A stretch of 62,718 nucleotides of DNA from Candidatus Methylacidiphilales bacterium (lineage in GTDB: Bacteria; Verrucomicrobiota; Verrucomicrobiia; Methylacidiphilales; JAAUTS01). The DNA lies in NCBI GenBank assembly GCA_028713655.1, contig JAQTNW010000020.1, positions 1 to 62,718 of the forward strand, in the 5' to 3' direction. This document shows positions 13,896 through 45,468 of the stretch, in pieces (the first letter of the stretch is position 1; every line of letters begins with the position of its first letter). The position numbers were made by a program, and so were the translations under genes. The notes under the pieces were generated by a model. The model was not told the DNA's origin, ran no database searches, and was given only the letters and a program-made list of their open reading frames with translations.

Positions 13896-13896
13896 A

Positions 13897-16443
13897 ATGA
13901 AGCGGCTCCTGCGCAGCTTATTGTTAGGGCTGGGCCTGCTGATAATGGCAGGCCTGGCGCTGCGTTTCTGCCTGCCCGCTCCCGATCTGTGGGAAAGCGT
14001 GAAGTTTTCCCGTTGCTATTATGACCGCGAGGGCAACCTGCTCCGCGCCACGCTGGCCGACGACCAGACCTACCGGATTCGTACGCCGCTGAAGGAAATC
14101 TCGCCCCTGCTGGTCCAGGCCACGCTGCTGCATGAAGACCGTTACTTCGGTTTTCATCCGGGATTCAATCCGGTCGCGCTCGGGAAATCAGCTCTGAACG
14201 AAATGACAGGCCTGCATCGCCGCTTCGGCGCCTCCACCATCCCAATGCAACTCGCGCGCATCCGCTTCCATCTCAACACCCGCACCTGGCCCGGCAAGTT
14301 CATCCAGGTCCTGCGCGCCGTACAGATCGAGTACACCTATTCCAAAAACGAAATCCTGGAAGCCTATCTCAACCAGGCTTCCTACGGGCGCAACATCGAG
14401 GGCATCGGCGCGGCCAGCATCATTTATTATGGGAAAACCCCCGACAAACTGTCCCTGGCCGAAGCCGTCACACTGAGCGTCATTCCCCAGAGTCCCGCCC
14501 GCCGCGCGCCGCGTTTTCCGGGGGAAACCGCACGCGGCAATGATGCGCTGCTCAAGGCTCGCGCCGCGCTTTTCGCCCAATGGGTTGAGGAACATCCGCA
14601 GGACGCCGGACTGCGGCCCACGCTCGACATGGCGTTGCAGGTGAAAACCCCGCGCAATCTTCCATTCCTGGCGCCGCACTTTGTCGATTCACTAGCCTGC
14701 ATGTCTCAGTCCTCTCGGGAAATCCACCAGTTGTCTTTGTTCCCAATCAATAAAACGACAGGTGCCGGGAACATGCAGGCTATTAACCCGGATGCCGGAT
14801 TGTCTGCTTTCTGTTCAACCTTTTGGCAAAATATTTTGTGCGAGTTTTCAAAAGAAGATGAATCATCCGGGTTGGATTCTCGTGCGGCGCAATATCGCGT
14901 TCACTCCACGCTCGAACTTTCCCTGCAACACACATTGGAGCGCGAGGTGTCGCAGTTTGTTGAAAAGCGCAGGTCTGGAGGCGTGAATAATGCGGCCGCG
15001 TTGCTGATCGATTCGCGGAACATGGAAGTATTGGCTGCGGTCGGCTCTGCGGATTATTTTTCCAAGGACATCGACGGCCAGGTCAACGGCACCACGATGC
15101 GGCGCTCACCCGGTTCCACGCTCAAGCCACTGCTCTATGCGCTTGCAATGGACGAGGGCCTGATCCAGCCGCATTCATTGTTGAAGGACGCGCCCTCCGG
15201 TTTTGCGGGATACAACCCGGAAAATTACGACCGCGAATTCGCCGGCCCGATCCAGGCCTGCACTGCCTTGCAGCAAAGCCGCAATGTGCCGGCGGTTTGG
15301 CTGTCCTCCCGCTTGAAGAAGCACACGCTCTATCAACTTTTATCGCAGACCGGGGTTAAAAATTTACAGGAAGAAACGCACTACGGCCTGACCCTGGCTC
15401 TCGGCAGCTCCGAAGTGAGCATGGAAGAACTGGCCCGGCTCTACGCCATGCTCGCCAATCGCGGCGCCTACCGTCCGTTGCGCACATCGCTGGATGAAGT
15501 TTCCGCGGAAAAGCAACAGCTCCTGAGCCCCGAAGCTTGTTTTATGGTATTGGATATTTTGAAACAAACAGGCCGGCCTGACAGCCTGCGCAGCGAGGGA
15601 CTCCGCAACAACGGTGGCGCCGTGGCCTGGAAAACCGGCACCTCCTGGTCCTTGCGCGACGCGTGGTCGGTTGGGGTTTTCGACCACTACATACTTGTCG
15701 TCTGGGTCGGGAATTTTTCCGGCGAAGGCAACGAAGCGTTTGTCGGTCGCCGCACCGCGGCGCCGTTGCTCTTCGGAATGATCGATGCCATCCGCGCGCG
15801 CATAAGTGAAGCCGCAGGTCTTGCCGACTGGGAAAAGTCAGACGGCCTGAATCTCGAACGCGTGGATCTTTGCGCACTGTCGGGCGAGCCTGCGGGCGCG
15901 CATTGCCCGAGGACGATCAAAGACTGGTTCATTCCCGGGGTTTCGCCGATCCAGACCTGCACGGTTCACCAGGAAATCTATGTCGATACCCGGACCGGTA
16001 GGCGCGTGAGAAAACCAACAGATGCACGTGAAGTACACACGGAGGTCTATGAAGTTTGGACAAGCGATTTGTTGGAGCTGTTCCGCAAGGCGGGCTTGCC
16101 CCGTCGCACGCCGCCGACGTATGCGGGCGTCCAGACGCAGACATTGCCCGCCAACTCGGATAATGCTTCAGAGCCGGTCATCACCTCGCCGCAACAGGGT
16201 GTTACCTATGCCTTGCGGACGGCGGCTGCGGGGGAAGAGAACAAGCAAACGTTGCTGTTACAGGCCTCTGCGGCGCCGGGTGCCGACAGCCTGTATTGGT
16301 TTGCCGACTCCACCTATCTCGGAAAAACCCGGCCGGAAGAAACGCTTGCGTGGAAGCCCTTGCCCGGCGCACATCACATCAGCGTCACCGATGCACAGGG
16401 CCGCAGCGCCTCGCGCCAAGTCACCGTCGAAGCCGCGCAGTAA
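13897..16443 (+). CDS. pbpC: Penicillin-binding protein 1C
   Basis: 848 aa class A PBP. An N-terminal membrane anchor (~residues 5-25) is followed by a GT51 glycosyltransferase with HEDRYFGFHPG (catalytic E80) and FGASTIPMQLARI. The transpeptidase follows with S407-T-L-K410 (in SPGSTLKPL), SRN (QQSRNVPAVW) and KTG at 579 (WKTGTSW). The C-terminal BiPBP_C Ig-like domain (PVITSPQQGVTY) is specific to PbpC. It builds and cross-links glycan in the periplasm. It is coupled to the alpha-2-macroglobulin gene. Residues ~270-330, between the two enzymatic domains, are a low-similarity insert. Confidence 0.93.
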   Translation: MKRLLRSLLLGLGLLIMAGLALRFCLPAPDLWESVKFSRCYYDREGNLLRATLADDQTYRIRTPLKEISPLLVQATLLHEDRYFGFHPGFNPVALGKSALNEMTGLHRRFGASTIPMQLARIRFHLNTRTWPGKFIQVLRAVQIEYTYSKNEILEAYLNQASYGRNIEGIGAASIIYYGKTPDKLSLAEAVTLSVIPQSPARRAPRFPGETARGNDALLKARAALFAQWVEEHPQDAGLRPTLDMALQVKTPRNLPFLAPHFVDSLACMSQSSREIHQLSLFPINKTTGAGNMQAINPDAGLSAFCSTFWQNILCEFSKEDESSGLDSRAAQYRVHSTLELSLQHTLEREVSQFVEKRRSGGVNNAAALLIDSRNMEVLAAVGSADYFSKDIDGQVNGTTMRRSPGSTLKPLLYALAMDEGLIQPHSLLKDAPSGFAGYNPENYDREFAGPIQACTALQQSRNVPAVWLSSRLKKHTLYQLLSQTGVKNLQEETHYGLTLALGSSEVSMEELARLYAMLANRGAYRPLRTSLDEVSAEKQQLLSPEACFMVLDILKQTGRPDSLRSEGLRNNGGAVAWKTGTSWSLRDAWSVGVFDHYILVVWVGNFSGEGNEAFVGRRTAAPLLFGMIDAIRARISEAAGLADWEKSDGLNLERVDLCALSGEPAGAHCPRTIKDWFIPGVSPIQTCTVHQEIYVDTRTGRRVRKPTDAREVHTEVYEVWTSDLLELFRKAGLPRRTPPTYAGVQTQTLPANSDNASEPVITSPQQGVTYALRTAAAGEENKQTLLLQASAAPGADSLYWFADSTYLGKTRPEETLAWKPLPGAHHISVTDAQGRSASRQVTVEAAQ

Positions 16444-23140: not shown

Positions 23141-24598
23141 TCAGTGCGGAGCTGGCAGCGTGGGAGAGCCGCCCTGGGCGGTCTTGATTTGCCTGATGCC
23201 GTCCTGGATGAGCATGAAAAGCAGCATCCAGCCCACAATGCAAATGACGCCTTCCAGGATGACGTGGCTTAAATTGTAGTCCAGCAAAGGCAGGGTGAGG
23301 CCTGAATTCCAAAGCATGTGCAACACCACCGGAACCAAGGCAATGCGCAGGAAAGTCCAATCTCCGAGGTAGTTGAAGGAGAATTTGCGGCCGGCCAGGA
23401 GCCTCCAAAACGCACCGGCGGTGATGGCCGTCCAGCAAATGTGGCCGAACGGCGCGAAGAACGCGCGCTGCATCATGACGCCTTCCATGGTGGCATTGTT
23501 CCCCAGCATGCCTTCCAGCGCCCGAAAGGCATATCCGGCTGATTCGAAGGCGCTGAAAGCGGTACCAATGGCAGCTCCTAACAAAATCCCGTTGATGGTC
23601 CAGGGATAGCGGCTGGGCCGCGCCAGAATCAAAACAGCCAGCAGTTTGCCGGTTTCTTCAATGGGTCCGGCCGCAATATCACCCCAGGCCTTGTCCAGGT
23701 TGGTTTCCTGAAACAGCAGGAGTGAAAACACAATCGACAGCAGGCCGCCGGCAAGAAGCAGTTTGGCCACCAGATAGGCCGAAATGTTTTTCAAAATATT
23801 CATCTCGAAAATCATGATCAGCGTCGCCATGGGCACACCGAAAGATCCGATGAACAGCCAGCCGGGGATGAGGTTCCAATTTTGGAAACGGTCGAAGGCA
23901 TAACTGAATCCGAAATAAACGGCAGCGGACAGCAACAGAATGGGACCGAAGACCCAGGGCTTGGGCCAATTGGCCTGCACACTGTTAAAGTCCGGAGTGG
24001 TGAGGCGCGTGCCGACCGCAAACTGCTCCTCGACTTCCTCGGCTTTGCGTTTGCGAAAAACTTCCGAAAACAAATCACGCAGATTAAATCCAACCAGTGG
24101 TTGCAAGCCCGTCATCTGGCTCAGTTTGTCACCCACCTTGCCGAAAAAACCGCCGGCATGATCGTCGAGGTCCGGTTGCAAAGAGCCGCGCGCACTCCAA
24201 ATTTTGTCCAGTTCCTTGCGTGCTTCGGGATGACCGGCCTGTTCGGCTTTTTTCAGGTAAACCACCGCGTGCTCCAGGTCCTTGGCCGGTACGCCGTCGC
24301 CGCGCAGATAAAGGCAACCCAGATAATATTGGGCATTGGCGTGACCCTGCTCGGCGGAACGGCTGAACCATTCGTAAGCGGCGCGGGCGTCTTTGGGCGT
24401 GCCTTCGCCCCGGTAATGGCAAAGGCCAACCCAGCATTGCGCGGCGGGGTTGCCGGATTGGGCCGCCAGGCTGAATTTTTCAAAGGCGGCTTGGTAATCG
24501 CGGGCCACGCCCTCGCCTTGATAATAACGGACGCCCTCCGCCAGCAGGGCGGCTGCGTCGGGCTCGGCATGGCCGTCTGTTGATTTTTTGTCGCTCAT
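23141..24598 (-). CDS. Sel1-repeat / PrsW-type intramembrane protease fusion
   Basis: 485 aa. Residues ~15-125 hold three Sel1-like repeats (e.g. GVRYYQGEGVARDYQAAFEKF, split here for length; YHYRGEG-type turns; YLGCLYLRGDG). After a linker come at least seven membrane segments with PrsW motifs: IEETGKLLAVL (E-E-x-x-K), FESAGYAF, APFGHICWTAITAGAF and VVLHMLWNSG. PrsW is a glutamic-type membrane protease that cleaves the anti-sigma factor RsiW in Bacillus. The Sel1 part likely recruits a protein partner in the cytoplasm. It ends 10 bp from the convergent GT9 gene. The N-terminal Sel1 fusion is less usual than plain PrsW. Confidence 0.85.
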   Translation of the reverse strand: MSDKKSTDGHAEPDAAALLAEGVRYYQGEGVARDYQAAFEKFSLAAQSGNPAAQCWVGLCHYRGEGTPKDARAAYEWFSRSAEQGHANAQYYLGCLYLRGDGVPAKDLEHAVVYLKKAEQAGHPEARKELDKIWSARGSLQPDLDDHAGGFFGKVGDKLSQMTGLQPLVGFNLRDLFSEVFRKRKAEEVEEQFAVGTRLTTPDFNSVQANWPKPWVFGPILLLSAAVYFGFSYAFDRFQNWNLIPGWLFIGSFGVPMATLIMIFEMNILKNISAYLVAKLLLAGGLLSIVFSLLLFQETNLDKAWGDIAAGPIEETGKLLAVLILARPSRYPWTINGILLGAAIGTAFSAFESAGYAFRALEGMLGNNATMEGVMMQRAFFAPFGHICWTAITAGAFWRLLAGRKFSFNYLGDWTFLRIALVPVVLHMLWNSGLTLPLLDYNLSHVILEGVICIVGWMLLFMLIQDGIRQIKTAQGGSPTLPAPH

Positions 24599-25395: not shown

Positions 25396-25842
25396 TCAAG
25401 CCGCAATATCTGTTGTACGACAATCCGGCCTGCGCGACTTGAGATAAACGACATCGATCTTGCCGTCCAGAATACTCTGCAGCAAAAGGTTCAGTGAGCG
25501 CGACGGGCGTTCCCGGCCTGTTTCCCAACGGGTCCATGTTTTTTCGCCGATCTGCAGAAGTTCGGAAATTTCCTTCTGGGTCAGATCCAGATGCTCGCGG
25601 AGTTCCTTGATCTGTTCCGGAGTGAGCAAACCCATGTGCCGGGCTTTGACCTTGTCGAGCTCGCCCAGCGCATGACCGTCAAAATAAATTTCACCGGTCT
25701 TCCGGCTTTTCAAGGCTTGAACCCGGTGATTGATGGTTTCGGCAATATTTTTCCCATCCAAGGTTGGAATAAAGACCGGAGCTTCGATCCAAATTTTTTC
25801 GAACTCTTCGTCCGGCAAGTCCGGGGCGGACGTTTTATTCAT
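25396..25842 (-). CDS. XRE-family antitoxin, MqsA/HigA-like
   Basis: 148 aa. The C-terminal half is a helix-turn-helix, GLLTPEQIKELREHLDLTQ then KEISELLQIGEKTWTRWETG, in the form seen in MqsA (YgiT)-type antitoxins. The N-terminal half has no CxxC zinc pairs, unlike E. coli MqsA. It follows the putative toxin gene with a 4-bp ATGA overlap, toxin first, as in mqsRA and higBA. It probably represses the operon through the palindrome at 26191. Confidence 0.75.
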   Translation of the reverse strand: MNKTSAPDLPDEEFEKIWIEAPVFIPTLDGKNIAETINHRVQALKSRKTGEIYFDGHALGELDKVKARHMGLLTPEQIKELREHLDLTQKEISELLQIGEKTWTRWETGRERPSRSLNLLLQSILDGKIDVVYLKSRRPDCRTTDIAA

Positions 25843-26186
25843 AACACGTCTCCTTTTCTGGGAGGATGGGCGGAATAGATTTTGATTCTTGATCGGTTCG
25901 GGTGAAGCCCCACTTTGCCGTAAAGCTTCACGCTGTCCTGATTGAAGAAAAATTCCCAGGTTTCATAGCCTTCCGCCATATCTGTGATTTCCTGGCCTGT
26001 GATGTTGTCTTTAATAAGCGCGGCACCCAATGCTTCCCAAAGATCGGAAGTCCACGCATTGGGGAACCGCGCCTGCCAAAGATTGCGGCCTTCAAAAGTA
26101 AATTGAATGTTGCTGTCATTTCGCATTCGTAGAATGGCCACAACTTGGCTTCGCCAAGGTTTGGGTATGGGAATCTGATCCGTCAT
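25839..26186 (-). CDS. Putative type II toxin partnered with XRE antitoxin
   Basis: 115 aa, small and with mixed charge. The C-terminal motif is KLYGKVGLHPNRSRIKIYSA followed by HPPRKGD, which recalls RelE/HigB or MqsR-like toxins in which a basic strand ends the fold. I cannot place it in a named family with confidence. The toxin call rests mainly on the gene order, the 4-bp overlap with an XRE antitoxin gene and a palindromic upstream site. The likely activity is mRNA cleavage, which is inference. Confidence 0.55.
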   Translation of the reverse strand: MTDQIPIPKPWRSQVVAILRMRNDSNIQFTFEGRNLWQARFPNAWTSDLWEALGAALIKDNITGQEITDMAEGYETWEFFFNQDSVKLYGKVGLHPNRSRIKIYSAHPPRKGDVL

Positions 26187-26467: not shown

Positions 26468-26506
26468 TTAGTTTGACGTCTAACTAAGTTCGTGTTGAAT
26501 CCAATC
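26468..26506 (+). promoter_or_regulatory. MarR operator overlapping a leaderless promoter
   Basis: TTAGTTTGACGTCTAACTAA at 26468-26487 is a 20-bp palindrome with one mismatched pair, the size and shape of MarR-family operators. It contains a -35-like TTGACG (26473-26478); a 16-nt spacer leads to TTGAAT (26495-26500), which puts the start point on the ATG at 26507. MarR binding here would block RNA polymerase. Confidence 0.6.
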
Positions 26507-26956
26507 ATGTCCAAATCCATCGGCCCCGGACATGAGGTCTTGCTCGCCTTCCTGGCCGCATCCAATACGATGTCGCGCAAGAGCGACGCCTTTTTCAGCC
26601 GCTTCAAAATCACACCCGCGCAATTCAATGTCCTCAACCTCGCCATGACTCATGGAGGAACCATCGCTCAAAAAGAACTGGTGTCCGGACTTCTTGTCGG
26701 AAAGGCGTCCGTTTCCATCGTGCTGCGAAGAATGCTGCGCGATGGCCTGCTCACGCAAAAACCGGACCCCGCCGACTTGCGCAAATCCGTAATCACACTC
26801 ACTTCCAAGGGAAAAAAACAATGGAAACGAACAGCCCCGGAATACGGCAAAGCCGTTGAACGCATCTTCGGCGAATACAACGCCAAAGAACTGAAGGAAT
26901 TTCAAAAACTGCTAGTCAAACTGGACCAATCACTCGGGAAAACCATCAAGGAGTAA
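26507..26956 (+). CDS. MarR-family transcriptional regulator
   Basis: 149 aa from the ATG at 26507. Winged-helix pattern: ITPAQFNVLNLAMTHGGTIA, QKELVSGLLVGKASVSIVLR as the recognition helix, RMLRDGLLTQK and DPADLRKSVITLTSKGK as the wing. MarR dimers usually repress their own operon and release DNA on binding a small ligand or on oxidation; no cysteine is apparent here, so a ligand is more likely. The operator lies across its promoter. Its final codons overlap the AAGGAG Shine-Dalgarno (26948-26953) of the DUF2339 gene, so it heads that operon. Confidence 0.85.
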   Translation: MSKSIGPGHEVLLAFLAASNTMSRKSDAFFSRFKITPAQFNVLNLAMTHGGTIAQKELVSGLLVGKASVSIVLRRMLRDGLLTQKPDPADLRKSVITLTSKGKKQWKRTAPEYGKAVERIFGEYNAKELKEFQKLLVKLDQSLGKTIKE

Positions 26957-26960
26957 ACTT

Positions 26961-29930
26961 ATGCTAGGAATCGTGTTGTTTTTAACCATTGTCGCCGTCG
27001 TCGTTTTGTTTTCCATTCTCGGCAGCAGGATCGAGAACCTGAGATCGGATGTGGAAATGCTCAAGAATTCCCTCGAAAGGCTCAGGGAAAAATCCAGCGC
27101 TCACCTGGACTTTAAAAGTTCCGCGCAAAAAACTCCGGTCCCGGAGCCCGCAGGCCAAACATTCCCTGCGCCTGTTGCTCCGCCACTACCAACACCCCCA
27201 CCGCTGATTCAAAAGCCCGTCGTGAGTGAAACCGCCCCAATACCTCCCGTGATTCCACAGCCCGCATCAAGTGCTCCCATGCGCGTCGCACAGACCGGAA
27301 GCGCGCAAAAGCAAGAAAGAACCGCTCCATCCTTCGAATTCAATTGGGAACAATTCCTAGGAGTCAAAATGTTCGCGTGGTTCGGCGGGCTCATTTTGTT
27401 CATCAGCGTTTTGTTTGCGCTGAAGTACTCCTTTGACAACAACCTGATTCCGCCGGCGCTGAGAATGTCCATAGGGGCCTTGTTCGGAATCGGCCTGGTC
27501 ATTGCCGGAGCATGGCCCAAAAAACAGCAATTTGCCGTACTGTCGCAGACCTTGTGCGCCGTGGGAGTTGTTGTGTTGTATGCCGTCCTGTTTGCCTCAA
27601 CCAGCCTGTACCATTTATTGCCGCCTGCCGCAGCCTTTGTGCTGATGGTGGTTGTGACGGCCGCAGCGTTCTCGATTGCCGTGGCGTTGGACGGCCAGTT
27701 TGTGGCGATCCTGGGCCTGCTGGGAGGCTTCCTGACTCCGTTCCTGCTGGGAAGCGGGGAAGATCACGCCCTGGGGCTTTTCTCCTATATCTTCCTGCTG
27801 AATGCGGGACTGGGGCTGGTGGTGCTGCGAAAAAATTGGGGATACATGCAAGCCCTGGCGGTTTTGGGGACCGTGGTCATGGAAATTGCGTGGTGCATCC
27901 GTTTTTATTCAAACGAAAAAATCTGGACTTTGTTTGGAATCCTGACGGTCTTCCAGGTTGGATACACCGGCTTGCTTTTCGTCCAAAGGAGAAAAAACAA
28001 CCCGTTGAACTGGCATTTTGGAAGCGCTTGCGGGCATGCCGCCACATCCATTTTGTTCTTTTCCGTGCTCTTGCTCGCCGGAAACAATTCAGCCTACCCT
28101 CTGGCTGAATTAACCGGCCTGGCCGTTATCAGCGCAACTGCCCTGCTGGCCGTCTCGATCGTTGCGGAGCTTTACTGGATCCATTCCATTTTTGGAATGA
28201 TGATCTTCGGCGCGCTGTCGATCTGGATGTCCCTCTATTTCAAGGAACCGGCATTAAAGCTGGTTCTGGCCTTCGATTTGATTTTTGCGGTGTTGCATAG
28301 CGCAGGCCCTGCGTTTTTACAAAAACTGCGCGGGGCAAAAATTGCGCCCGGCTGGACGCAAATCTTTCCAATCATGGCGATGCTTTTGGTTCTCCTGCCA
28401 ATCTACATGCTGGACAACGTATCGCCCATCATCTGGGGCGCCATCATCGCCGTGAATCTCGTGGTGATGTTCTTCACCGTCATCATGGCGACCTACTGGG
28501 CCCTGGCCGTCATGATTGTGCTGACTCTAGTTGCCGTGGGGTCCTGGATTACCAGGGTGCCCGTCGGCGGCACGGATATCGACGCCATGCTGTGGATGGT
28601 CGGGGGGTTTGCGGTGGCTTTGTTTACGGGTAGCGTTTTTGTCCTCCTCCACTACCGGAGGTCGCTCACTCTTGCCGACGCAACAAAAAGAATTCCCCTG
28701 AACGTGGTGCAATTGCCCGCATTATCCGCTGCACTGCCCTATGTGCTGCTGATCATGGTCATGGACCACTTGCACCTGGCAAATCCATCGTTTGTGTTTG
28801 GACTGGCCTTGCTGCTTTCCGTCATGTTGCTGGGCACGGCTAGATGGGCGAAGACGTATTGGCTGGGCTGGGTTGCCCTCGGAGGAACGGCACTGACCCA
28901 GTGGGCCTGGCACGGCACGTCGAACCAGGGCATGCACGATGCCGCGCCCGCATGGAGCGTTCTATTTTTCGTTTTGTTCTTTGGATACGCGCTGGTTTTC
29001 AAAAAAGCGTTCACGGAACAATTGCATCCCTGGGCCATTGCGTGCATCGCAGGCCTGGCCCATTTCCTTCTCGCACATCGGAACATCCAGGAATTTCACC
29101 CGAATCACAGCATGGGACTTGTACCTCTGCTCTTTGCCTTGCCTTATATTGGAGCCACGGGATATTTGCTGCGAGGAATTCCCGAAAGCAGCCCGCGACG
29201 AAATGCCATCCTGGCTTGGTACGGGGGAACGGCGCTGTTTTTTATAACAATCATTTTCCCGATTCAATTCGGGAACGAATGGCTGACAATCGCGTGGGCG
29301 CTTGAAGGCGCGGCATTGATCTGGTTGCGGAATCGAATCCGCCATAACGGGTTGTGGATGGTCGGATGCGGGCTGCTCGCGGTTGCGTTTGCGCGTCTGG
29401 CGCTGAACCCGGCCATCCTGGAGTATCACGTCAGATCGTCCGTTCCCATTCTGAATTGGTATTTGTACACCTATGGGCTCGCGATTGCGGCGATGCTCGG
29501 CGGCTCCTGTTTGCTCAAAAGACAGGAGCTTGGAAAATGGGACGGTTGGAATTGGCAGGGACTGCTGACAGGCGCGGCCCTGGTCCTGCTCTTTCTTTTG
29601 ATGAACATTGAAATTGCCGATTATTTTGCGACAGGCTCCACGCTTACGTTTGATTTCTCGGATAATTTTGCCCGCGACATGGCCTATTCGATTGGCTGGG
29701 CGATTTTTGCCCTTGGATTGCTGGTGGCAGGTATTCGCCACCAGGCAAGGGCCGCGCGCTACGCGAGCATCGGCCTTTTTGGCATTACGGTATTAAAAAT
29801 ATTCTTCCATGACATTTCGCAGTTGAGCGCGCTGTATCGCATTGCGACTTTGGTGGTTGTGGCCGTGCTGCTGATCCTGTCGTCGTTCCTCTATCAAAAA
29901 TTTGTCGCCAAAAGTCCCGAATCAAAATAA
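26961..29930 (+). CDS. DUF2339 giant polytopic membrane protein
   Basis: 989 aa. An N-terminal membrane helix is followed by a short coiled coil (IENLRSDVEMLKNSLERLRE) and a Pro-rich linker (~residues 55-115). Then FEFNWEQFLGVKMFAWFGGL, characteristic of DUF2339, and more than twenty membrane segments to the C-terminus. A Shine-Dalgarno AAGGAG precedes the start by 7 nt. DUF2339 proteins are widespread in Gram-negative bacteria, usually beside DUF3999 as here, and have no established function. The size and topology suggest an envelope transporter, flippase or polymerase; that is inference. Confidence 0.85.
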   Translation: MLGIVLFLTIVAVVVLFSILGSRIENLRSDVEMLKNSLERLREKSSAHLDFKSSAQKTPVPEPAGQTFPAPVAPPLPTPPPLIQKPVVSETAPIPPVIPQPASSAPMRVAQTGSAQKQERTAPSFEFNWEQFLGVKMFAWFGGLILFISVLFALKYSFDNNLIPPALRMSIGALFGIGLVIAGAWPKKQQFAVLSQTLCAVGVVVLYAVLFASTSLYHLLPPAAAFVLMVVVTAAAFSIAVALDGQFVAILGLLGGFLTPFLLGSGEDHALGLFSYIFLLNAGLGLVVLRKNWGYMQALAVLGTVVMEIAWCIRFYSNEKIWTLFGILTVFQVGYTGLLFVQRRKNNPLNWHFGSACGHAATSILFFSVLLLAGNNSAYPLAELTGLAVISATALLAVSIVAELYWIHSIFGMMIFGALSIWMSLYFKEPALKLVLAFDLIFAVLHSAGPAFLQKLRGAKIAPGWTQIFPIMAMLLVLLPIYMLDNVSPIIWGAIIAVNLVVMFFTVIMATYWALAVMIVLTLVAVGSWITRVPVGGTDIDAMLWMVGGFAVALFTGSVFVLLHYRRSLTLADATKRIPLNVVQLPALSAALPYVLLIMVMDHLHLANPSFVFGLALLLSVMLLGTARWAKTYWLGWVALGGTALTQWAWHGTSNQGMHDAAPAWSVLFFVLFFGYALVFKKAFTEQLHPWAIACIAGLAHFLLAHRNIQEFHPNHSMGLVPLLFALPYIGATGYLLRGIPESSPRRNAILAWYGGTALFFITIIFPIQFGNEWLTIAWALEGAALIWLRNRIRHNGLWMVGCGLLAVAFARLALNPAILEYHVRSSVPILNWYLYTYGLAIAAMLGGSCLLKRQELGKWDGWNWQGLLTGAALVLLFLLMNIEIADYFATGSTLTFDFSDNFARDMAYSIGWAIFALGLLVAGIRHQARAARYASIGLFGITVLKIFFHDISQLSALYRIATLVVVAVLLILSSFLYQKFVAKSPESK

Positions 29931-29954
29931 CAGCAGAATTCGAACAGGAATCCC

Positions 29955-31910
29955 ATGAAACACATCTTAAAATGGAGCGCGGCGCTTTTCATGGCCGTCC
30001 AGATTTGCGTTGCCGGAGATTGGAAGGAAGCATGGCAATACGGGCAGGGAATTTCCGTGCCCAAGGCGGGGATTTACAAATTCGATCTCAGCCCGGATGT
30101 TCTCGGTAAAAGCCAGGCGGATTTGCGGGATTTGCGGTTCGTGTCCCCCGGTGGTGAGGAAGTGGGTTTTGCTATCGGTTCCGGTAACACGGAAACAAAG
30201 CCCGTTTCCGTCGAATCACTTTCAACCCAATGGCTCCATGGAGAAACCATTGTTCAAATTAAAACCAATACCCCGGCCCTGATTCGGGAAATCCAATTAT
30301 CCGTGGGTACGAATGATTTTCAAAGGTCGGCCAAAGTGGAGGCCTTCGACGGCAGGGAATGGGTGACCGTGCTGGAGCATGATCCAATCTACCGGCAAAG
30401 GGTTCCCTTTGAGGAAAAAACGAATTTTAAGTTCTCTGCGATCAAAGCTCGGGAATTTCGCGTCGCCATACCCGACGACAAAGGAAAGCCTATTATTGTG
30501 AATCGGGCCTATGTGGTGGAGGCCGAAAGAAATATTGGAGCGCAAACGATTTCCTACCCAATCGTCATCCGAGACCATGTGGAAACGGTTGGGAAAAGTT
30601 ATTATTCAATCCAATTTCCGGCGGCAAACCTGCCGATCTACAGCCTTGCTTTTGGCATCGAAAACCCGGTTTTTCAACGCTCCGTCAAATTATCAATTCC
30701 CAACATCGAAGGAGGTGTTGTGACGGAGCGCGAAATTGCCCAGGGCGCGCTTACCCGCAGCCTGGATGGAAAAAGCAGGGACGGAAAAGTTATCGTTCCG
30801 TTTTATGGGGTCCAAACAGACACAAAAGAATGCCGCCTCTATATTGAAAACGGGGACAATCCCCCGCTGAAAATCAATGAGATCGAAGCAAGGGTTCTGC
30901 CGCTGTCATGCGTCTTTTACGCCCTCAGCGGCGGGACTTATCAAGTCCTGACCGGCAATAAACAAGCGGAACAAAAACATTATGACGTCTCCGGTTTGAA
31001 AATTTCAAATGCCGTGCAAGTGGCCGCAACGACACCATTAAAACCGTACGGTAACTATAAAAACAACACTCTGATCCTGGGAAATGAAATTCTCGGCGGG
31101 ATATTGTCGCCCAATGACTGGCAAAAGAATTTTTCGATCCAGCAGCAGGCTGTCGGCGTGCAGGAACTTGAATTGCCTCCCGAGGCTCTGGCGTGCGCCG
31201 GCGAAAATCTAGGCGACGCCAGAATCATCAAAGGAAACAGGCAAATCCCCTATTGGGTGGAGCGCCTGCCTGTTGATCGTACCACGGACGCAGAAATCGT
31301 GGCGGACAAAAATAATTCCACAAGCAAGACAGGCAAATGGGAAGTGCGTTTGCCCCTGGCCAATCTGCCCGTAAAGGCAATTACCCTGGAAAGTCCAACG
31401 CAGCTCTTTGAAAGAACTCTTTCGGTTTATGAGGAAGACATGGGACATGGCAAAATTCTTTTGGGTTCCGCCTCATGGAAGCATGTGCCTCAAAAGGCTG
31501 ATGCTTCCTGCCTGATTCAACTGTACCGTCATCCCCAATCCAAAACCCTTTTTATTGAAACGGACAATGGCGACAACGCGCCGATTGAGATTTCAAAAGC
31601 TGAATATCAGCTTCCGATCATACGGTTGCTCTATTATAGATCGACAGACGAGCCGGTCCGTTTGCTTGCCGGGAATCCGAACGCAAGCACTCCCCAGTAC
31701 GACATTGCGAGTGTGCTGGATGAATTGAAAACCAGCCCCCGCTCCACTGCCAAAGTCGGGAACCCGGGAGGATCCCAGGCATTCTTCAATCTCAACTCAT
31801 GGGTCAGCGGTGAAAGCGGCATCCTCTACTGGATTATTCTTGCAGGCGTCGTGATTGGTTTATTCTTCGTCATGACCAAATTGCTGCCCGCTTCAAATGA
31901 CAAAAGCTAG
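29955..31910 (+). CDS. DUF3999 exported, membrane-anchored protein
   Basis: 651 aa with a signal peptide (MKHILKWSAALFMAVQICVA, cleavage near residue 20), starting the mature part with GDWKEAWQYGQGISVPKAGI. Beta-rich domains make up most of it, and one C-terminal membrane helix (GILYWIILAGVVIGLFFVM) anchors it. Most of the mass should be periplasmic. It matches DUF3999, the usual neighbour of DUF2339. CAGGAA before the start serves as Shine-Dalgarno, 24 bp after the previous stop. I take it as the periplasmic partner of the DUF2339 protein. Confidence 0.82.
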   Translation: MKHILKWSAALFMAVQICVAGDWKEAWQYGQGISVPKAGIYKFDLSPDVLGKSQADLRDLRFVSPGGEEVGFAIGSGNTETKPVSVESLSTQWLHGETIVQIKTNTPALIREIQLSVGTNDFQRSAKVEAFDGREWVTVLEHDPIYRQRVPFEEKTNFKFSAIKAREFRVAIPDDKGKPIIVNRAYVVEAERNIGAQTISYPIVIRDHVETVGKSYYSIQFPAANLPIYSLAFGIENPVFQRSVKLSIPNIEGGVVTEREIAQGALTRSLDGKSRDGKVIVPFYGVQTDTKECRLYIENGDNPPLKINEIEARVLPLSCVFYALSGGTYQVLTGNKQAEQKHYDVSGLKISNAVQVAATTPLKPYGNYKNNTLILGNEILGGILSPNDWQKNFSIQQQAVGVQELELPPEALACAGENLGDARIIKGNRQIPYWVERLPVDRTTDAEIVADKNNSTSKTGKWEVRLPLANLPVKAITLESPTQLFERTLSVYEEDMGHGKILLGSASWKHVPQKADASCLIQLYRHPQSKTLFIETDNGDNAPIEISKAEYQLPIIRLLYYRSTDEPVRLLAGNPNASTPQYDIASVLDELKTSPRSTAKVGNPGGSQAFFNLNSWVSGESGILYWIILAGVVIGLFFVMTKLLPASNDKS

Positions 31911-31939
31911 AAGCCGTCCAAGATTCAAGGAATAAACCC

Positions 31940-34450
31940 ATGCGCACCGTTATTGTCGGTATTAGTCTGTTAGTCTTGCTCCACATAAACCCGCTGCATG
32001 CGGAAGAGGCGGCGCCTGCTTTTGACGTGCCGAGCCTCGACAACATCACAATCGACGGCAAGACCGATGATTGGGGCAATCGCGGGTTTCGCGTCGAGGT
32101 CATGGGAAACGCCGACGGCACAGTCAAAGCGGCTGCCGATCTCGATGCCGCCTTCCGTCTCGGCTGGGATGAGCACGGATTACTCCTGTTGCTCAACGTC
32201 GTTGACGACGTGGCTGACGAGGCAAAAGAGCACAACGAGCTTTGGCAACGGGATTCGGTCGAAATTTTCTACTCGCCCCAGCGCGGCTCGCCCGATGTGG
32301 TTCAACTGGTGGTCAGCCCCGGAGTCGATCCGCAACGCCCCGAACTCCGGTCGATCCTGCAGGACGAACGCAAAACGGAAGCCCTGAAGAAAACGAAAGC
32401 TGAAGTCACCGCCGTGCGCAGCAGGACCGCGCATGGCTACACCTTGGAAGTCCTGCTGCCCTGGTCAAATTTCGGGATCAAACCCGAAGCCGGGCGTGAA
32501 CTGGCCTTCCAGATCTACGTCAACGACGCGGACGGCGGAAAAGGCCTTTTCTCGGCAGTTTGGTACCCCTTCGGTTCCGGCCATGACTCGATGAACATGC
32601 AGCGCCTGCGGCTTGCATACAAACCAAGCCCGCCGATCAAGGCCGTTGCTTCTGCCGAATACGAACGGTTTCGCCGGGTGCGCGTGCATGTGGCGGCAAC
32701 GGCGGACCTTCTTGGAAAAACGCTCACGCTGAAGGGGGATGGCCGCAAATTGGGCAACTTACCGCTCACTTCGGAAGGCGGACGCGCGGGCGCGCAATTC
32801 GTATTGCCGATGCCCCCGCAAGACAAGGGGTATGGACCGCTGGATCTCGTTGTCGATGGTCAATTGCTGAAAACCATCAAGCTGCCAGATCTTCAGGCGT
32901 CGCGCGCAAAAGCCTTCATGGAGCAGCATCTGGTCTTCCATCCAGGCGTGTTCTCGGGCGCGAATTTTCCAAAATGCGATTTTGAACACCCGTCGTATGT
33001 GGAGGATTTGATAGGATCCTATACCCTAACGACCACATTCTACGACGCCGATTACAATCAGGTCACGACGGCGGAAAAGCCGGGCCGCTACGGCGCCGTC
33101 GTCGAAATCAAGGCTGGGAACGGAAAGTCATTCCGGCGTTTGTTGACATTGTATCGGATGCCACAAGACCTTGATTGGTGGGCGCGGAAGGACAGCGCGG
33201 GGTCGATCGAATTTCCAAAGGAAACGGGGATCAACCCCATCGTGGCAAATGAACAAAAGCACTCGACCGGCAAATATCTGACAGGACTTTTGAAAGAAAG
33301 TTTTTCGCGGGACGCGGCAGCCCCAGCGGTGCTGGCGGAGCTTTACGATACGAAGCTTGGAACGAAGGATGCGGGCGTTTTTGATGATTTCCTCGCCCAT
33401 GACCGACAGTGGTGGGCCGGGATGAAACGCAAGCTCTCGGGCGCCGACAAGCTGTATTCGAACCTGTTCGTCTGCCCGCAAATCGTGAAGGAAAAGCCCT
33501 CGACGATTCTTCATGAAGGTTCGTTGAAAGAAGCAGGGATGAAGCCCGACGCGGCGAAGAACATTGACGCTCAGCTCAAGCAATGGTCGGCGGACAGCGG
33601 CGAACCGTTTGCCGTCTGCATTGTGCGGCACGGCGTGATTGTTTTGCACAAAGCCTACGGACAGCGCGACGGCAAGCCCATGACGGTGAATACAAAGAGT
33701 TGGATGGCCTCGATCACGAAGGCGATGTCCGGATCGGCCATGATGATGCTCGTCGATCAGGGCTTGGTAAATCTCGATGATCCCGTGTCAAAGTATCTGC
33801 CGGCATTCGCTGGAGCCGCTATTTCCACGCCGCTGACAATCCGTCATCTTTACACGCACACGGGCGGATTGCAGGGACATTGGGGTGACGATCTCAACGA
33901 TTTTGACGACGTGATCGCCGGTTATTATCCGTACCTGGAGATCGGCAAGCGGCTTGAATACGACGGCGCCGGTCCCGCGCTCGGCAGCAAGATCGTCGAG
34001 ATGGTCAGTGGAGAAGCATTGCCGCAGTTTTATAAACATCACCTGCTGGATCCACTTGGTTGCGCCAGCACCGAGGTCACCAACAGTTCCTACGATGCCC
34101 AAAGCACGCCGATGGACATCGCAAAATTCGGGCAGATGCTGCTGAACCACGGCAGCTATGGCGACAAACAGTTTATGAGTCCTGAAACATTCCAACAAAT
34201 GCTTCCCGTACGATTGAACAAACTGCTCGGGCCTGACACGACCGTCGAGTGGGGGATTGGCCTCGTCTGGTACAAGGACGAGTGCCTCGGCAAAGGAACC
34301 TTCGGCCACGGTGCGGCGTCAGGGGCAACCTTGCGAATGGATCCCGAGCACGATCTGGTCATCGTGATGACCCGGAACACGGCGGGCGAGAAATTTGCCA
34401 AGTATCATCCCAAGTTCCTCAGCACGATCCTCGACAACATTGCAAACTAA
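31940..34450 (+). CDS. Exported protein: CBM9/DOMON-like domain fused to class C beta-lactamase-like serine hydrolase
   Basis: 836 aa, with signal peptide to about residue 21 (LHAEEAAP). Residues ~25-230 form a carbohydrate-binding-9-like domain (ITIDGKTDDWGNRGF, LWQRDSVEIFYSP). Residues ~520-836 are a beta-lactamase/esterase (S12) domain with S-x-x-K in WMASITKAMSG, Y-x-x region YDGAGPALGSKIVEM, and GHGAASGATLRMDP as the KTG-equivalent loop. AAGGA precedes the start 29 bp after the DUF3999 gene, so it appears to be the last operon gene. Likely role: periplasmic esterase or peptidase on an envelope glycan or peptide. The substrate is unknown. Confidence 0.8.
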   Translation: MRTVIVGISLLVLLHINPLHAEEAAPAFDVPSLDNITIDGKTDDWGNRGFRVEVMGNADGTVKAAADLDAAFRLGWDEHGLLLLLNVVDDVADEAKEHNELWQRDSVEIFYSPQRGSPDVVQLVVSPGVDPQRPELRSILQDERKTEALKKTKAEVTAVRSRTAHGYTLEVLLPWSNFGIKPEAGRELAFQIYVNDADGGKGLFSAVWYPFGSGHDSMNMQRLRLAYKPSPPIKAVASAEYERFRRVRVHVAATADLLGKTLTLKGDGRKLGNLPLTSEGGRAGAQFVLPMPPQDKGYGPLDLVVDGQLLKTIKLPDLQASRAKAFMEQHLVFHPGVFSGANFPKCDFEHPSYVEDLIGSYTLTTTFYDADYNQVTTAEKPGRYGAVVEIKAGNGKSFRRLLTLYRMPQDLDWWARKDSAGSIEFPKETGINPIVANEQKHSTGKYLTGLLKESFSRDAAAPAVLAELYDTKLGTKDAGVFDDFLAHDRQWWAGMKRKLSGADKLYSNLFVCPQIVKEKPSTILHEGSLKEAGMKPDAAKNIDAQLKQWSADSGEPFAVCIVRHGVIVLHKAYGQRDGKPMTVNTKSWMASITKAMSGSAMMMLVDQGLVNLDDPVSKYLPAFAGAAISTPLTIRHLYTHTGGLQGHWGDDLNDFDDVIAGYYPYLEIGKRLEYDGAGPALGSKIVEMVSGEALPQFYKHHLLDPLGCASTEVTNSSYDAQSTPMDIAKFGQMLLNHGSYGDKQFMSPETFQQMLPVRLNKLLGPDTTVEWGIGLVWYKDECLGKGTFGHGAASGATLRMDPEHDLVIVMTRNTAGEKFAKYHPKFLSTILDNIAN

Positions 34451-34723
34451 CGGACAAGGATTTTGGCATCCTGGCTAAATTGCAGATGCGAAATACTCGG
34501 GTTTTATTTTCCGTTCAGGCCGAAAAGGCTGCCTGATGACCCGAAAACGCTTGTGCTTGTCTTCAGTGTCCTCTTTAGCCAGTCTTTCGCCATAGGATCC
34601 GCACTACCGGCTTGAAACCCCAGATCGACGTCTCCGTGGGCCAAAAGTGGTTTTCTATCAGTGATTATTTGTCGCCCGGCCTTCCGGCATGAACAACAAA
34701 CAACATCAACAAGGATCCCGCTC
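34451..34723. other. Intergenic region with possible protease-gene tail on minus strand
   Basis: On the minus strand 34504-34560 reads FGSSGSLFGLNGK-stop, close to the last residues of the sedolisin at 37011 (TGIGSPLGLNGK-stop). It may be a scrap of a duplicated protease gene; the match is only about a dozen residues. Nothing else recognised. Confidence 0.3.
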
Positions 34724-36970
34724 ATGAAAATATTACAGATTACGAGATGCCTTTCCGCCGGGTTGATCGTGCTGACTGCAAGCACTTTCATCTGCCCAAT
34801 GGCTCTTGCGCAAATTCGCACGCTGCCGAGCCAGGAATCGAATCTTCAGCCCCGCAATGAGACTCTCCTGACGCTCGCGGATGGCCGCAAGGCCCGTATC
34901 GTTGGCGGCAAACTTCTGCTGTATGCGGCTGTCGGCCGCGCCGTTTCCGCTCCCGCTCCTGCTCCTGCTCCTGCGGGCGAATATCACACGAGTGAAGGGC
35001 GTGTACTTCATGTGGCGGCAGGGGGGGTGCTCATTCCTGCTTCCAGCACGACTGCCGGCGTGACGCCTCATCAAGTTCCAGACAACGGAGATGGCAAGGG
35101 TGCTTCCATGAAGATTGGCCCCATTACAAATCCGGGCGCAAGACCGTTGCCATCGAAAGTGCAGGCGACTCTTCAAGTTTCACACGGAGGAGGCGACGCT
35201 ACACAGGGTCCAACGGACGAATCCGGGAACAAGATCGGCATCAATCCGGATTCCGAATGGCACAGTTCCGTCTCGATAAACAACACGCTTTTATCGCTGT
35301 GTAACTTCCGCTGGCGTGTGGACGCTCCGGCTTCCGTCAAGCATGCGCGCTTTGAAATCGCCGGCGTTGGCGATGCAGCAGACGCCCCCAACTGGTCGGA
35401 CCCGTCGAAGTCACCACCTCCCGCAGGAAGCGGCATCGTCGAATTCACTCCCAAGGATGACGGCTGGTCGCGCTTCGACTTTGATTTTAAATCCATCTAT
35501 GAGAAGAAAAGCTTCACATGGGCGAAGGCTGATCACTTTCTGCTGCGGATTACACCGCTGTTGGCCAACGGCTCGGCTGCAGGCCCGCCTTCCAGCCCCG
35601 TGCTCCTTATTCCCAGCGCCAACGGCATTGGCTTGATCCCGCCACCATCAGCATCCAAAGCGCCTCCACCGACCAAGCCTCTCATCACCGCTCTGAGTTT
35701 CACGCCAGCCGTGAATTTTAATCCTCTCAGCGGCGAAAATGGCGGTGAGGCCGGCTTTATCATGCACTTCGTGGTGACCCGCGAGCCCGCCCAACTCGAA
35801 AAAATCATCGCAGATGCCTATTCAGCCAACAGGACGGAGAATGGGGTAAAAAAGCCCGGCCCGCTTCATAAGGGAGATCACTTTTTCATTAATTTTTCCC
35901 CGGCCAGCCAGGATGTCGAGGGTTGGGACGCCGTCGGCAATTTCGTCAGCGGAATCCCCGGCGCCATTGAAAACGCCCTCAACTTCTTTGCAAAAGTTTA
36001 CAACGACGATATCAAGGGCCAGCTCGTCAGCATTGTCGCCTCCATCATCGGGCCCGTCCTCGGTCCCATCGTTGGCCCGGACCTGTCCGCCACCCTCGCG
36101 AAAGAACTCGTCAACGCCGCCCTCGTCACTTGCGGCATCCCGCCCACCCTGCCGGATGCCGCCTCCCTTCAGAACATGGGTGCTGATTACATCATTGCCA
36201 GCGCCGCGGATCAGGCCGGCGTTGATATTCCTGATGAAGCCAGGGAGCAACTCAAAAAAGGAATTGCCAAACTGACGGACCCAAGCACCAGCGGAGTTCT
36301 CAATCCGCTCTTCTACGCCCCTGATCCCGCCTATCTGTACCACCCGCCGGTCCTGTTGTTACAGGCCAGTTTTGTGAAGACGACAAACTACAGCCTTGTG
36401 AAAAACCAAACTTCGGACGGTAACACCAGCACCGGCAAGACCGGGGGCACCAACTACGACCCTGTTCCAAAAAACACCGATCCAAGCAAAGACAAACTCA
36501 AGACCGATCCGAACGCCAATGATCCCGACTTGATCATACACGGTCCCCAAACGACGGGCGGTGGGCAGCCTCCGCCCCCCAAACATCAGGACGGACAAAA
36601 CGTGAATGAACCCAAGGGCAACGATTCCACAGGAAGTTCGGGCAGCGGATCTGGCTGGCCAGCCAAGTCAAAAAAAACCGTGGTCCACATTGAAGTGCGT
36701 ACCAGCATTAGTTTCGATCTGAACAAAAAGACTGGAGGCTCAGCGTTCTGCGATGAGAACACGCTCATCCTCACCGCAGACGTCAACGTTCCGCCGGTGC
36801 GGCTGGGGGAATCCTTCACGATTCCGGTGATTTTGCGTTTCCCGCCGAATGCCGCCAAGGACTCGCCTGGCTACCACAACTGGTTTATGGCCTTCAGCTA
36901 TGGAGACATGACGAAGTTCTATATCGATGGAGGTTACGGCTCGGAACACTCGCACACCAAATCCTGGTGA
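34724..36970 (+). CDS. Large secreted protein of unknown function
   Basis: 748 aa from the ATG at 34724, 10 nt after an AAGGA. Signal peptide MKILQITRCLSAGLIVLTAS with cleavage expected after ALA near residue 30. An Ala/Pro run (APAPAPAPAG, ~residues 77-90) is followed by beta-rich segments, a glycine/valine-rich helical stretch near 410-480 (IVASIIGPVLGPIVGPDLSA), a Gly/Asn/Lys/Pro-rich low-complexity linker (~580-650) and a C-terminal beta domain with VPPVRLGESFTIPVILRF. No family recognised. It lies between the MarR operon and a convergent sedolisin gene and may be a surface or matrix protein. Confidence 0.65.
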   Translation: MKILQITRCLSAGLIVLTASTFICPMALAQIRTLPSQESNLQPRNETLLTLADGRKARIVGGKLLLYAAVGRAVSAPAPAPAPAGEYHTSEGRVLHVAAGGVLIPASSTTAGVTPHQVPDNGDGKGASMKIGPITNPGARPLPSKVQATLQVSHGGGDATQGPTDESGNKIGINPDSEWHSSVSINNTLLSLCNFRWRVDAPASVKHARFEIAGVGDAADAPNWSDPSKSPPPAGSGIVEFTPKDDGWSRFDFDFKSIYEKKSFTWAKADHFLLRITPLLANGSAAGPPSSPVLLIPSANGIGLIPPPSASKAPPPTKPLITALSFTPAVNFNPLSGENGGEAGFIMHFVVTREPAQLEKIIADAYSANRTENGVKKPGPLHKGDHFFINFSPASQDVEGWDAVGNFVSGIPGAIENALNFFAKVYNDDIKGQLVSIVASIIGPVLGPIVGPDLSATLAKELVNAALVTCGIPPTLPDAASLQNMGADYIIASAADQAGVDIPDEAREQLKKGIAKLTDPSTSGVLNPLFYAPDPAYLYHPPVLLLQASFVKTTNYSLVKNQTSDGNTSTGKTGGTNYDPVPKNTDPSKDKLKTDPNANDPDLIIHGPQTTGGGQPPPPKHQDGQNVNEPKGNDSTGSSGSGSGWPAKSKKTVVHIEVRTSISFDLNKKTGGSAFCDENTLILTADVNVPPVRLGESFTIPVILRFPPNAAKDSPGYHNWFMAFSYGDMTKFYIDGGYGSEHSHTKSW

Positions 36971-43602: not shown

Positions 43603-44073
43603 GTGAATTATGAGCAACTGATCAATGCCGCCCTCGGCTATCACAATCTGGGGATGGCCGAAGACTCGCTTGCCGAACTCGAACGTCTGGGCGGTCCGGA
43701 CCGACTGAGGCCCGAAGCCCTTGCCCTGAAGGTTTCCAGCCTCATGCGCCTCCAGAGATGGGAGGAAGCGATGCTGAGCGGCCTGGACCTGGCCCGCCAA
43801 CTGCCTTCCGAACCGGCGCCCTACCTCGATGTGGCTTTTTGCCTGCATGAACTCAAGCGCACCAAAGAGGCGCGCACAGTCCTGCTCAACGGGCCGGATT
43901 CTTTGAAGGACAACGCCACCTACCATTATAATATGGCCTGTTATGAAGCACAATTGGGAAGTCCAGCCCAGGCCAGGCGCCATCTCGACCGGGCCATTGA
44001 AATGGATCAACGCTTCAATGAAGTCTGGCCCGACGACCCCGATCTGGAACCGCTGCGCCGGACAAAATTTTAA
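43603..44073 (+). CDS. TPR-repeat protein
   Basis: 156 aa from a GTG at 43603 (VNYEQLINAALGYHNLGMAE). Three to four TPR-like helix pairs: ALGYHNLGMAEDSLAELERL, EPAPYLDVAFCLHELKRTKE, YHYNMACYEAQLGSPAQARR, then HLDRAIEMDQRF. No signal peptide, so a cytosolic scaffold. The stop overlaps the convergent ankyrin-transpeptidase gene by 4 bp. Specific partner unknown. Confidence 0.7.
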   Translation: MNYEQLINAALGYHNLGMAEDSLAELERLGGPDRLRPEALALKVSSLMRLQRWEEAMLSGLDLARQLPSEPAPYLDVAFCLHELKRTKEARTVLLNGPDSLKDNATYHYNMACYEAQLGSPAQARRHLDRAIEMDQRFNEVWPDDPDLEPLRRTKF

Positions 44074-45275
44074 TTTCCAATCGACACCAGCGTTCCGGGG
44101 TCGATGTTATCGTAAATTTCCTTCGCCTTGTCATAGGGCATCCGGATGCAGCCGTGCGACGCCGGATAACCGGGCAATTCACCGGCATGAAGGCCTATCA
44201 TTCCGCAGTTCAACCTCATAAAGAATGGCATCTCCGCGTCATACAAAGTCGAAACCCAATCCTCATACTTGTCGGTCACAACATAAAGCCCCGGCGGCGT
44301 TGCAAACCCTTTGCGTCCGGTGGAAACCGGGCTCTTGAGCCAGACCTGGCCGTCCTTGAACACTGTGGCCCGCTGTTTTGAAAGCGAAATTTCCACGCGG
44401 AAATGCTGGTCTTCCGGCCGTATGCTTTTGCCAAACAAGAGTTGCACCACCTGGGCGTGTTTGCCGACGGCTGCCAGGTAAACAGCGCTGGTCTCATGCC
44501 CCTTTGTCTCCAGCCGCCTGTTGGCCCCCATCTTCAGAAGAAGTTCGACCATCTCCAGATTTCCCTGGGCCGATGCGATCATCAGCAGGGTCACGCCCTC
44601 TTCCCGCCGCAGATAATATTCCAGGGACTCGTCACCGCCGGCCGTTTTGATAAATGTCGCCCGGGCTGGGATGCGCACGGTTTCATTTGGATTCTCGCCC
44701 CGTTGCAAAAGCGTGCGTGTCAGTTCCAGATTTCCGCTGGCCACGGCCCAAACAATGAATCGTTGCCCCTGGGCGCCGTCGGGACCGGGTCTCGCTCCGG
44801 CATCGATCAAGGATTTTACAAACACAGGAGATGAATGGTCCATCGCCGCTGAGAGCGGCGTGCGGCCTTTTTTGTCCGCCTGGTTCAAAGTTGCGCCCGT
44901 CGCGGCAAGCAGAGAGGCCAGCTCAATGCGCCCGTTCTCAATTGCATAGACCAGCGCGTTGCGCCCCTGTTTGTCCTGGCTGGTGGGATCGGCCTTTGCT
45001 TTCAATAAATATTCCGCCACGACCTTTTGCCCGGCGGCGGACGCGTGCATGAGCGCTGTCTCCCCCTGCGCATCGGCGGCGTCCACGGCCATGCCGGCCT
45101 GTAAAAACAGTTTCGTCCGCTTAAGATTGCCCTCGGAAACAGTTTTAAGATAAGAAGCCGTTGTAAACGAAATGCCTTCCTTCTCCAAGGCATGGCGGGC
45201 GCGCTCCTGGGGCTTTTGGCAACCGGCAAGGATCAGGGCGGGAACCATCAAAAAGAATGCAAGACTGCGCTTCAC
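44070..45275 (-). CDS. Lipoprotein with ankyrin repeats fused to an L,D-transpeptidase (YkuD) domain
   Basis: 401 aa from a GTG at 45275 (VKRSLAFFLMVPALILAGC, lipobox Cys ~19); the frame is open 46 codons upstream without signal features. Residues ~45-285 hold six or seven ankyrin repeats (e.g. AQGETALMHASAAGQKVVAE, KQGRNALVYAIENGRIELAS). The C-terminal ~130 residues are a YkuD domain with GMIGLHAGELPGYPASHGCI ending in R-M-P, giving the HX(n)SHGC(I/V)R signature with catalytic Cys. It should cross-link peptidoglycan (3-3 links) or attach proteins, with the ankyrins as a periplasmic protein-binding arm. The fusion is unusual. Confidence 0.9.
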   Translation of the reverse strand: MKRSLAFFLMVPALILAGCQKPQERARHALEKEGISFTTASYLKTVSEGNLKRTKLFLQAGMAVDAADAQGETALMHASAAGQKVVAEYLLKAKADPTSQDKQGRNALVYAIENGRIELASLLAATGATLNQADKKGRTPLSAAMDHSSPVFVKSLIDAGARPGPDGAQGQRFIVWAVASGNLELTRTLLQRGENPNETVRIPARATFIKTAGGDESLEYYLRREEGVTLLMIASAQGNLEMVELLLKMGANRRLETKGHETSAVYLAAVGKHAQVVQLLFGKSIRPEDQHFRVEISLSKQRATVFKDGQVWLKSPVSTGRKGFATPPGLYVVTDKYEDWVSTLYDAEMPFFMRLNCGMIGLHAGELPGYPASHGCIRMPYDKAKEIYDNIDPGTLVSIGN

Positions 45276-45468
45276 CGTCCGAAACTGTAATCGCAAATCG
45301 AATAAAACTCCATCCTTTGAATGTGAACTTTGTGCGAATTGGATTTCTCGGTATCGGGAAAATTGCCCACAAGGCATGAACTCGGGATTGATTTTTGGCA
45401 CAAGCCGGTACACTGTTTTACAGGTTATCCCTGCAAACCCGGCACGGGCTTTGGAGGGAAATTTAAAT

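Follow-up and report, generated by a model that had tools for sequence, protein, structure and literature searches.

The window, a stretch of 62,718 nucleotides that represents contig 20 of a 90-contig, 3.3-Mb Candidatus Methylacidiphilales genome (Verrucomicrobiota), contains four same-strand genes preceded by a palindrome:

26468-26487, no strand: predicted MarR operator, an 18/20 palindrome, TTAGTTTGAC|GTCTAACTAA
26492-26956, plus strand: MarR-family regulator (PF12802, 39 bits; PF01047, 32 bits), with ATG 26507 as a likelier start than GTG 26492
26961-29930, plus strand: Arc3A (DUF2339), long form, 989 aa (PF10101, E = 1e-82, 279 bits)
29955-31910, plus strand: Arc3B (DUF3999), long form, assigned by full-length homology, carrying a signal peptide, a unit duplicated internally and a TM helix at the C terminus
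31940-34450, plus strand: exported CBM9 and S12 serine hydrolase (PF06452, 63 bits; PF00144, 134 bits)

The ORF coordinates place gaps of exactly 4, 24 and 29 nt between the four genes, as the first-pass annotation had described. A promoter-motif scan of the operon found no internal promoter signals above chance level.

The product of the second gene passed the DUF2339 cut-off (PF10101, 279 versus 33.6 bits). It has an N-terminal coiled coil, a proline-rich linker and 25 hydrophobic segments, with about 29 helices in its AlphaFold model, which agrees with the roughly 20 transmembrane segments first estimated. The models of Arc3A and Arc3B have pLDDT values of 82 and 86, respectively, and the Arc3A model had no meaningful fold match in the PDB (TM at most about 0.3). 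The DUF3999 assignment of the third gene stood by homology but not by its own score, as ORF3 alone missed the PF13163 cut-off (11.3 versus 30 bits). ORF3 aligned over its full length with long DUF3999 proteins (E 1e-53 to 1e-81), many of which pass the PF13163 cut-off themselves; matches to PF13163 were found in 19 of 19 rows (best 5e-17) in one set of these homologs and in 14 of 15 in another. Because the full-length homologs match PF13163, ORF3 is classed here as a divergent Arc3B on the grounds of homology and position, not of the Pfam cut-off. With its hydrophobic N-terminal signal and C-terminal helix (residues 620-643), the protein is predicted to be exported, and its gene lies 24 nt from arc3A. 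The N and C halves of the long Arc3B align with each other at 99.9% probability, which marks the protein as an internal duplication, and its model consists of galactose-binding or discoidin-like beta sandwiches plus the C-terminal helix.

Adjacency of the two families, suggested in the first-pass annotation, is common within Verrucomicrobiota, and the Arc3A-Arc3B pair is the conserved core of the operon. The description of both as having unknown function no longer holds, because they have been named Arc3A and Arc3B, found to associate with each other, and assigned a role against lysophospholipids in Pseudomonas aeruginosa, where Arc3A stops lysophospholipid accumulation under attack by the T6SS phospholipase Tle3 (PMC8926400). 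Protection by Arc3A and Aas was also confirmed against lipase effectors of other species (PMC12663445). Arc3A has been suggested to act by sequestration and turnover of lysolipids or by interference with the phospholipase (PMC8926400), of which we favor sequestration.

The window operon resembles the P. aeruginosa system (arc3A PA5114, arc3B PA5113) in its DUF2339 gene with an adjacent DUF3999 gene, in the combination of a giant polytopic protein with an envelope partner (association having been shown for the P. aeruginosa pair), and in a hydrolase gene next door, which is estA in P. aeruginosa, where it was found to be dispensable (PMC8926400), and the CBM9-S12 gene in the window. It differs in having a MarR regulator and operator, presumably in place of Gac/Rsm control, in the duplicated unit and ordinary signal peptide of its Arc3B, and in encoding a CBM9-S12 protein rather than the EstA esterase. 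Arc3 function has been shown in P. aeruginosa, and a defense function of the window operon is inferred by analogy. Two size classes were observed in this phylum. In the short class, Arc3A has about 630-820 aa and 12-20 TM segments, and Arc3B is shorter; in the long class, Arc3A has about 1000 aa and 21-32 TM segments, and Arc3B is long. A second DUF2339 gene of the same genome (contig C1) is short and has no adjacent Arc3B. Long-form Arc3A also occurred in records labeled Methylomirabilota, Acidobacteria and Deltaproteobacteria (L130, L131, L143, L151, L177, L186), some of them without an Arc3B match.

The fourth gene product passed the cut-offs for CBM9 (63 versus 23.4 bits) and Beta-lactamase, in agreement with the exported carbohydrate-binding, beta-lactamase-like enzyme initially described. 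Ser591-Ile-Thr-Lys594, Tyr674 and His790-Gly, corresponding to the SxxK, Tyr and KTG/HxG motifs, were conserved in seven homologs. Given these conserved catalytic residues, and since the nearest solved relatives are mostly carboxylesterases, esterase activity is more probable for this protein than beta-lactamase activity. It shares the SxxK serine and the conserved lysine and tyrosine with the S12 carboxylesterases 4ivi and 1ci8 (EstB), but adds an N-terminal CBM9 and a middle domain.

The operon was originally read as an inducible system for editing an envelope glycan or peptide, with the CBM9-S12 protein as effector enzyme. The enzyme has intact CBM9 and S12 domains and is predicted to be exported, and the modeled Arc3B contains carbohydrate-binding-like beta sandwiches, both of which would suit that reading. 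However, no CBM9 or S12 relative was found beside arc3 in the 8 nearest or in 80 long-form loci, and the relatives of the enzyme stand alone: a 72% identical paralog in the same genome (G000:C23) and a full-length homolog in another family (46% identity) both lie away from arc3. Moreover, the known function of Arc3 concerns lipids, and neither glycan nor peptide genes recur alongside the MarR regulator or Arc3. We consider glycan or peptide editing improbable. Membership of the CBM9-S12 protein in a polysaccharide locus was considered and rejected, because the paralog is an orphan whose neighbors encode lactate racemase and glycerate kinase. Rather than a defining part of the system, the gene is a late, lineage-specific addition outside the conserved core. 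Hydrolases with other folds are recurrent neighbors of arc3: in one genome (G115) an alpha/beta hydrolase separates MarR from Arc3A, further alpha/beta hydrolases occur among the neighbors of long-form arc3 loci (5 of 58 proteins), and estA adjoins arc3 in P. aeruginosa. A lipid-ester role of the CBM9-S12 enzyme is therefore possible.

The complete four-gene order was absent from 8 close long-form arc3 loci, from 80 long-form arc3A loci and from the short-form loci read, and was likewise not found around CBM9-S12 homologs. Thus, the four genes together recurred in no other genome searched, but MarR-arc3A and MarR-arc3A-arc3B did. The regulator passed both winged-helix MarR domain cut-offs, as first annotated, and a blind search with it as query recovered homologs next to Arc3A, Aas or LplT. 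A MarR profile search yielded 30 strong orthologs in one Opitutaceae-like family (f12). Downstream of these, within 1.5 kb, Arc3A was encoded at 11 of 30 (on the same strand), Aas at 7 and LplT at 1, compared with none of the three at 38 weaker MarR paralogs (Fisher p = 1.6e-9). When longer regions were read, 28 of the 30 were linked to Arc3A and/or Aas/LplT, and the other two end at contig ends. Among 80 long-form loci found through Arc3A, six-frame HMM searches showed none with a MarR of the window type beside arc3A.

The orthologs in Opitutaceae-like and other Verrucomicrobiota lie directly upstream of arc3A, of aas/lplT, or of DUF2157-GDYXXLXY followed by aas. Architectures included MarR > Arc3A > Aas, MarR > Arc3A > DUF2157 > GDYXXLXY > Aas (G567), MarR > DUF2157 > GDYXXLXY > Arc3A > Aas (G661) and MarR > LplT-Aas fusion (G259); nine further loci of this family had MarR > DUF2157 > GDYXXLXY > Aas, one of them with Arc3A inserted. 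The first three window genes were reproduced in G662 (L314; MarR > Arc3A > Arc3B), and in G014, from the same taxonomic order as the window, MarR is divergent from Arc3A-Arc3B. Loci with DUF2157 (PF09925) and GDYXXLXY (PF14345) between MarR and Aas, the place of Arc3A in other loci, were seen in the Opitutaceae-like genomes at L304-L311, L213 and L317. An amidohydrolase adjoins LplT/Aas in four MarR operons (PF04909 for L312; L316, L323 and L324 by a shared N-terminal motif).

The six nearest orthologs of the window MarR come from a different family (f9) within its own taxonomic order and group with it on the tree (support 100/95). No Arc3A or Aas was found within the stretches read at these six loci. 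Alpha/beta hydrolases follow MarR in three of the six, one of which (L301, 3025-5685) also has a DUF2157-DUF4401-GDYXXLXY trio behind the hydrolase and MarR.

Conservation of the palindrome was in accordance with the dedicated regulator and operator first proposed. A palindrome as good as that at 26468-26487 arose in 0.3% of shuffles of the 130-bp region, and its position points to a MarR site at the regulator's own promoter. The motif AGTTTGAC[AG]TC was present upstream of 6/6 nearest orthologs, with the same spacing to the MarR domain as in the window and with operator matches of 13-16 of 20 positions versus 10-12 in controls. More broadly, GTTGAn4TCAAC (consensus AGTTGAyATATCAACT), from which the window operator departs, was found upstream of 17 of 40 strong orthologs and 0 of 26 controls (p = 4e-5), and strong orthologs lacking it still scored above controls (p = 0.001). 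The window held no second copy even at 3 mismatches, and the only other match in the genome requires 3 mismatches. An operator-based regulon within this genome was rejected on the basis of the single site, as was control of its two aas genes by the same operator, which had no copy within about 1.5 kb of them.

A tree of 43 Arc3A proteins was analyzed (INDEPENDENCE), for which the linked loci had been chosen through MarR. The MarR-linked Arc3As required five changes, forced by well-supported branches: the window, G662, G014, G115 and an Opitutaceae clade. By this phylogeny, the association of MarR with arc3A arose on five or more separate branches of Arc3A; given the choice of linked loci through MarR, the tree speaks to recurrence of the association and not to its frequency. 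On the MarR tree, linked orthologs were almost fully apart from paralogs (24.9 label changes in shuffles, 2 observed), and labels for arc3A, aas and DUF2157-aas were interleaved, so that these modules are exchanged behind one regulator.

MarR regulators are common and often adjoin membrane proteins. The window MarR could accordingly be a generic drug or stress sensor linked to arc3 by chance, but the linkage of 28 of 30 orthologs to two functionally related systems, the five or more separate Arc3A branches and the conserved operator argue strongly against this, and we regard it as the least credible of the explanations weighed here.

We consider it probable that the window encodes a MarR-repressed, lipid-damage-inducible arc3 operon, belonging to a regulon that responds to lysophospholipids and lies outside Gac/Rsm. 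The earlier idea of an inducible membrane system with a dedicated MarR, its operator and a DUF2339-DUF3999 pair is supported, with the inducer itself proposed by analogy. At rest, MarR would bind the palindrome overlapping its own promoter and silence the transcript; the operator and its position are observed, and repression is proposed. Phospholipase attack or similar membrane damage would raise lysophospholipids, fatty acids or acyl carriers, and a lipid ligand may then change the grip of MarR, leading to expression of the operon. A precedent is FabT of streptococci and enterococci, a MarR-family repressor that is the first gene of its own operon and is tuned by acyl-ACP (PMC13046290). Both regulators stand first in the lipid operon that they control or are proposed to control; FabT, however, governs fatty-acid synthesis with acyl-ACP as ligand, whereas the targets of the window MarR would be Arc3/Aas-type genes. 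Polytopic Arc3A in the inner membrane and periplasmic Arc3B would together prevent lysophospholipid build-up, as in P. aeruginosa (PMC8926400), and the CBM9-S12 enzyme would have no more than an accessory role as an esterase or lysophospholipase. In relatives, this MarR would control, by gene order, aas/lplT, which re-acylate lysophospholipids, or DUF2157-GDYXXLXY in the arc3A slot. LplT/Aas repair thus shares with the window operon a substrate class and orthologous regulators, but is absent from the operon itself, the aas copies of this genome lying elsewhere.

A serious rival is that the regulon serves housekeeping lipid turnover (scavenging of exogenous fatty acids or lysolipids, membrane recycling), with Arc3A/B as one maintenance device among others. 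The proximity of orthologous MarRs to Aas, LplT, alpha/beta hydrolases and FeeM-like acyltransferases, all suggestive of general lipid metabolism, would fit this well. Against it, protection by P. aeruginosa Arc3A is specific to lipase toxins and does not extend to general stress (PMC8926400, PMC12663445), and we judge housekeeping to be rather unlikely, if clearly the strongest competitor of the damage-inducible reading. The FeeM-like N-acyl amino acid synthase domains themselves lie beside MarR orthologs at L216 (11006-12595) and L217 (8175-8726) and may indicate an acyl-lipid link.

Arc3 itself was already known, and its authors expect induction by antagonism outside gamma-proteobacteria and leave it for future work (PMC8926400). 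What is new here is the proposed MarR switch and the claim of a wider lysophospholipid-damage regulon; no dedicated MarR switch for Arc3, common to aas/lplT and DUF2157-GDYXXLXY, was found in the literature searched. As Arc3 is widespread, a MarR with separate links to several Arc3A lineages, and with links to aas/lplT, offers a concrete regulator outside gamma-proteobacteria, and the conserved operator and recurrent lipid-repair neighbors provide a DNA site, a short list of ligands and a testable on-signal. More tentatively, this MarR subfamily may sense lipid damage and define how Verrucomicrobiota respond transcriptionally to phospholipase attack, with Arc3A/B, LplT/Aas and the DUF2157-GDYXXLXY module brought together in one response. 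Because the modules swap behind one MarR, the linkage predicts a function for DUF2157-GDYXXLXY, which, if the proposal is true, would be a second, Arc3-like lysophospholipid defense device; no comparable functional study of the pair turned up in the literature searched. A relationship of DUF2157 to DUF2339 by profile comparison was set aside as suggestive only (89% probability, with a membrane-composition bias).

Several other loci were observed in the window. A bacterial alpha-2-macroglobulin (1935 aa) is directly followed by a PBP1C-type transglycosylase/transpeptidase (8088-16440, plus strand). Since the mag operon protects P. aeruginosa against T6SS effectors (PMC12663445), this may by analogy be a second envelope-defense locus, about 10 kb from arc3. 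An MqsA-like HTH antitoxin and an overlapping 115-aa partner without a Pfam match (25396-26186, minus strand), oriented divergently to the MarR operon, likely form a toxin-antitoxin pair. Sel1 repeats are fused to a PrsW-type intramembrane protease domain at 23141-24598 (minus strand) and ankyrin repeats to a YkuD L,D-transpeptidase domain at 44073-45413 (minus strand). Finally, an apparently exported 769-aa protein without a Pfam or NCBIfam match is encoded 210 nt past the operon (34661-36970, plus strand).
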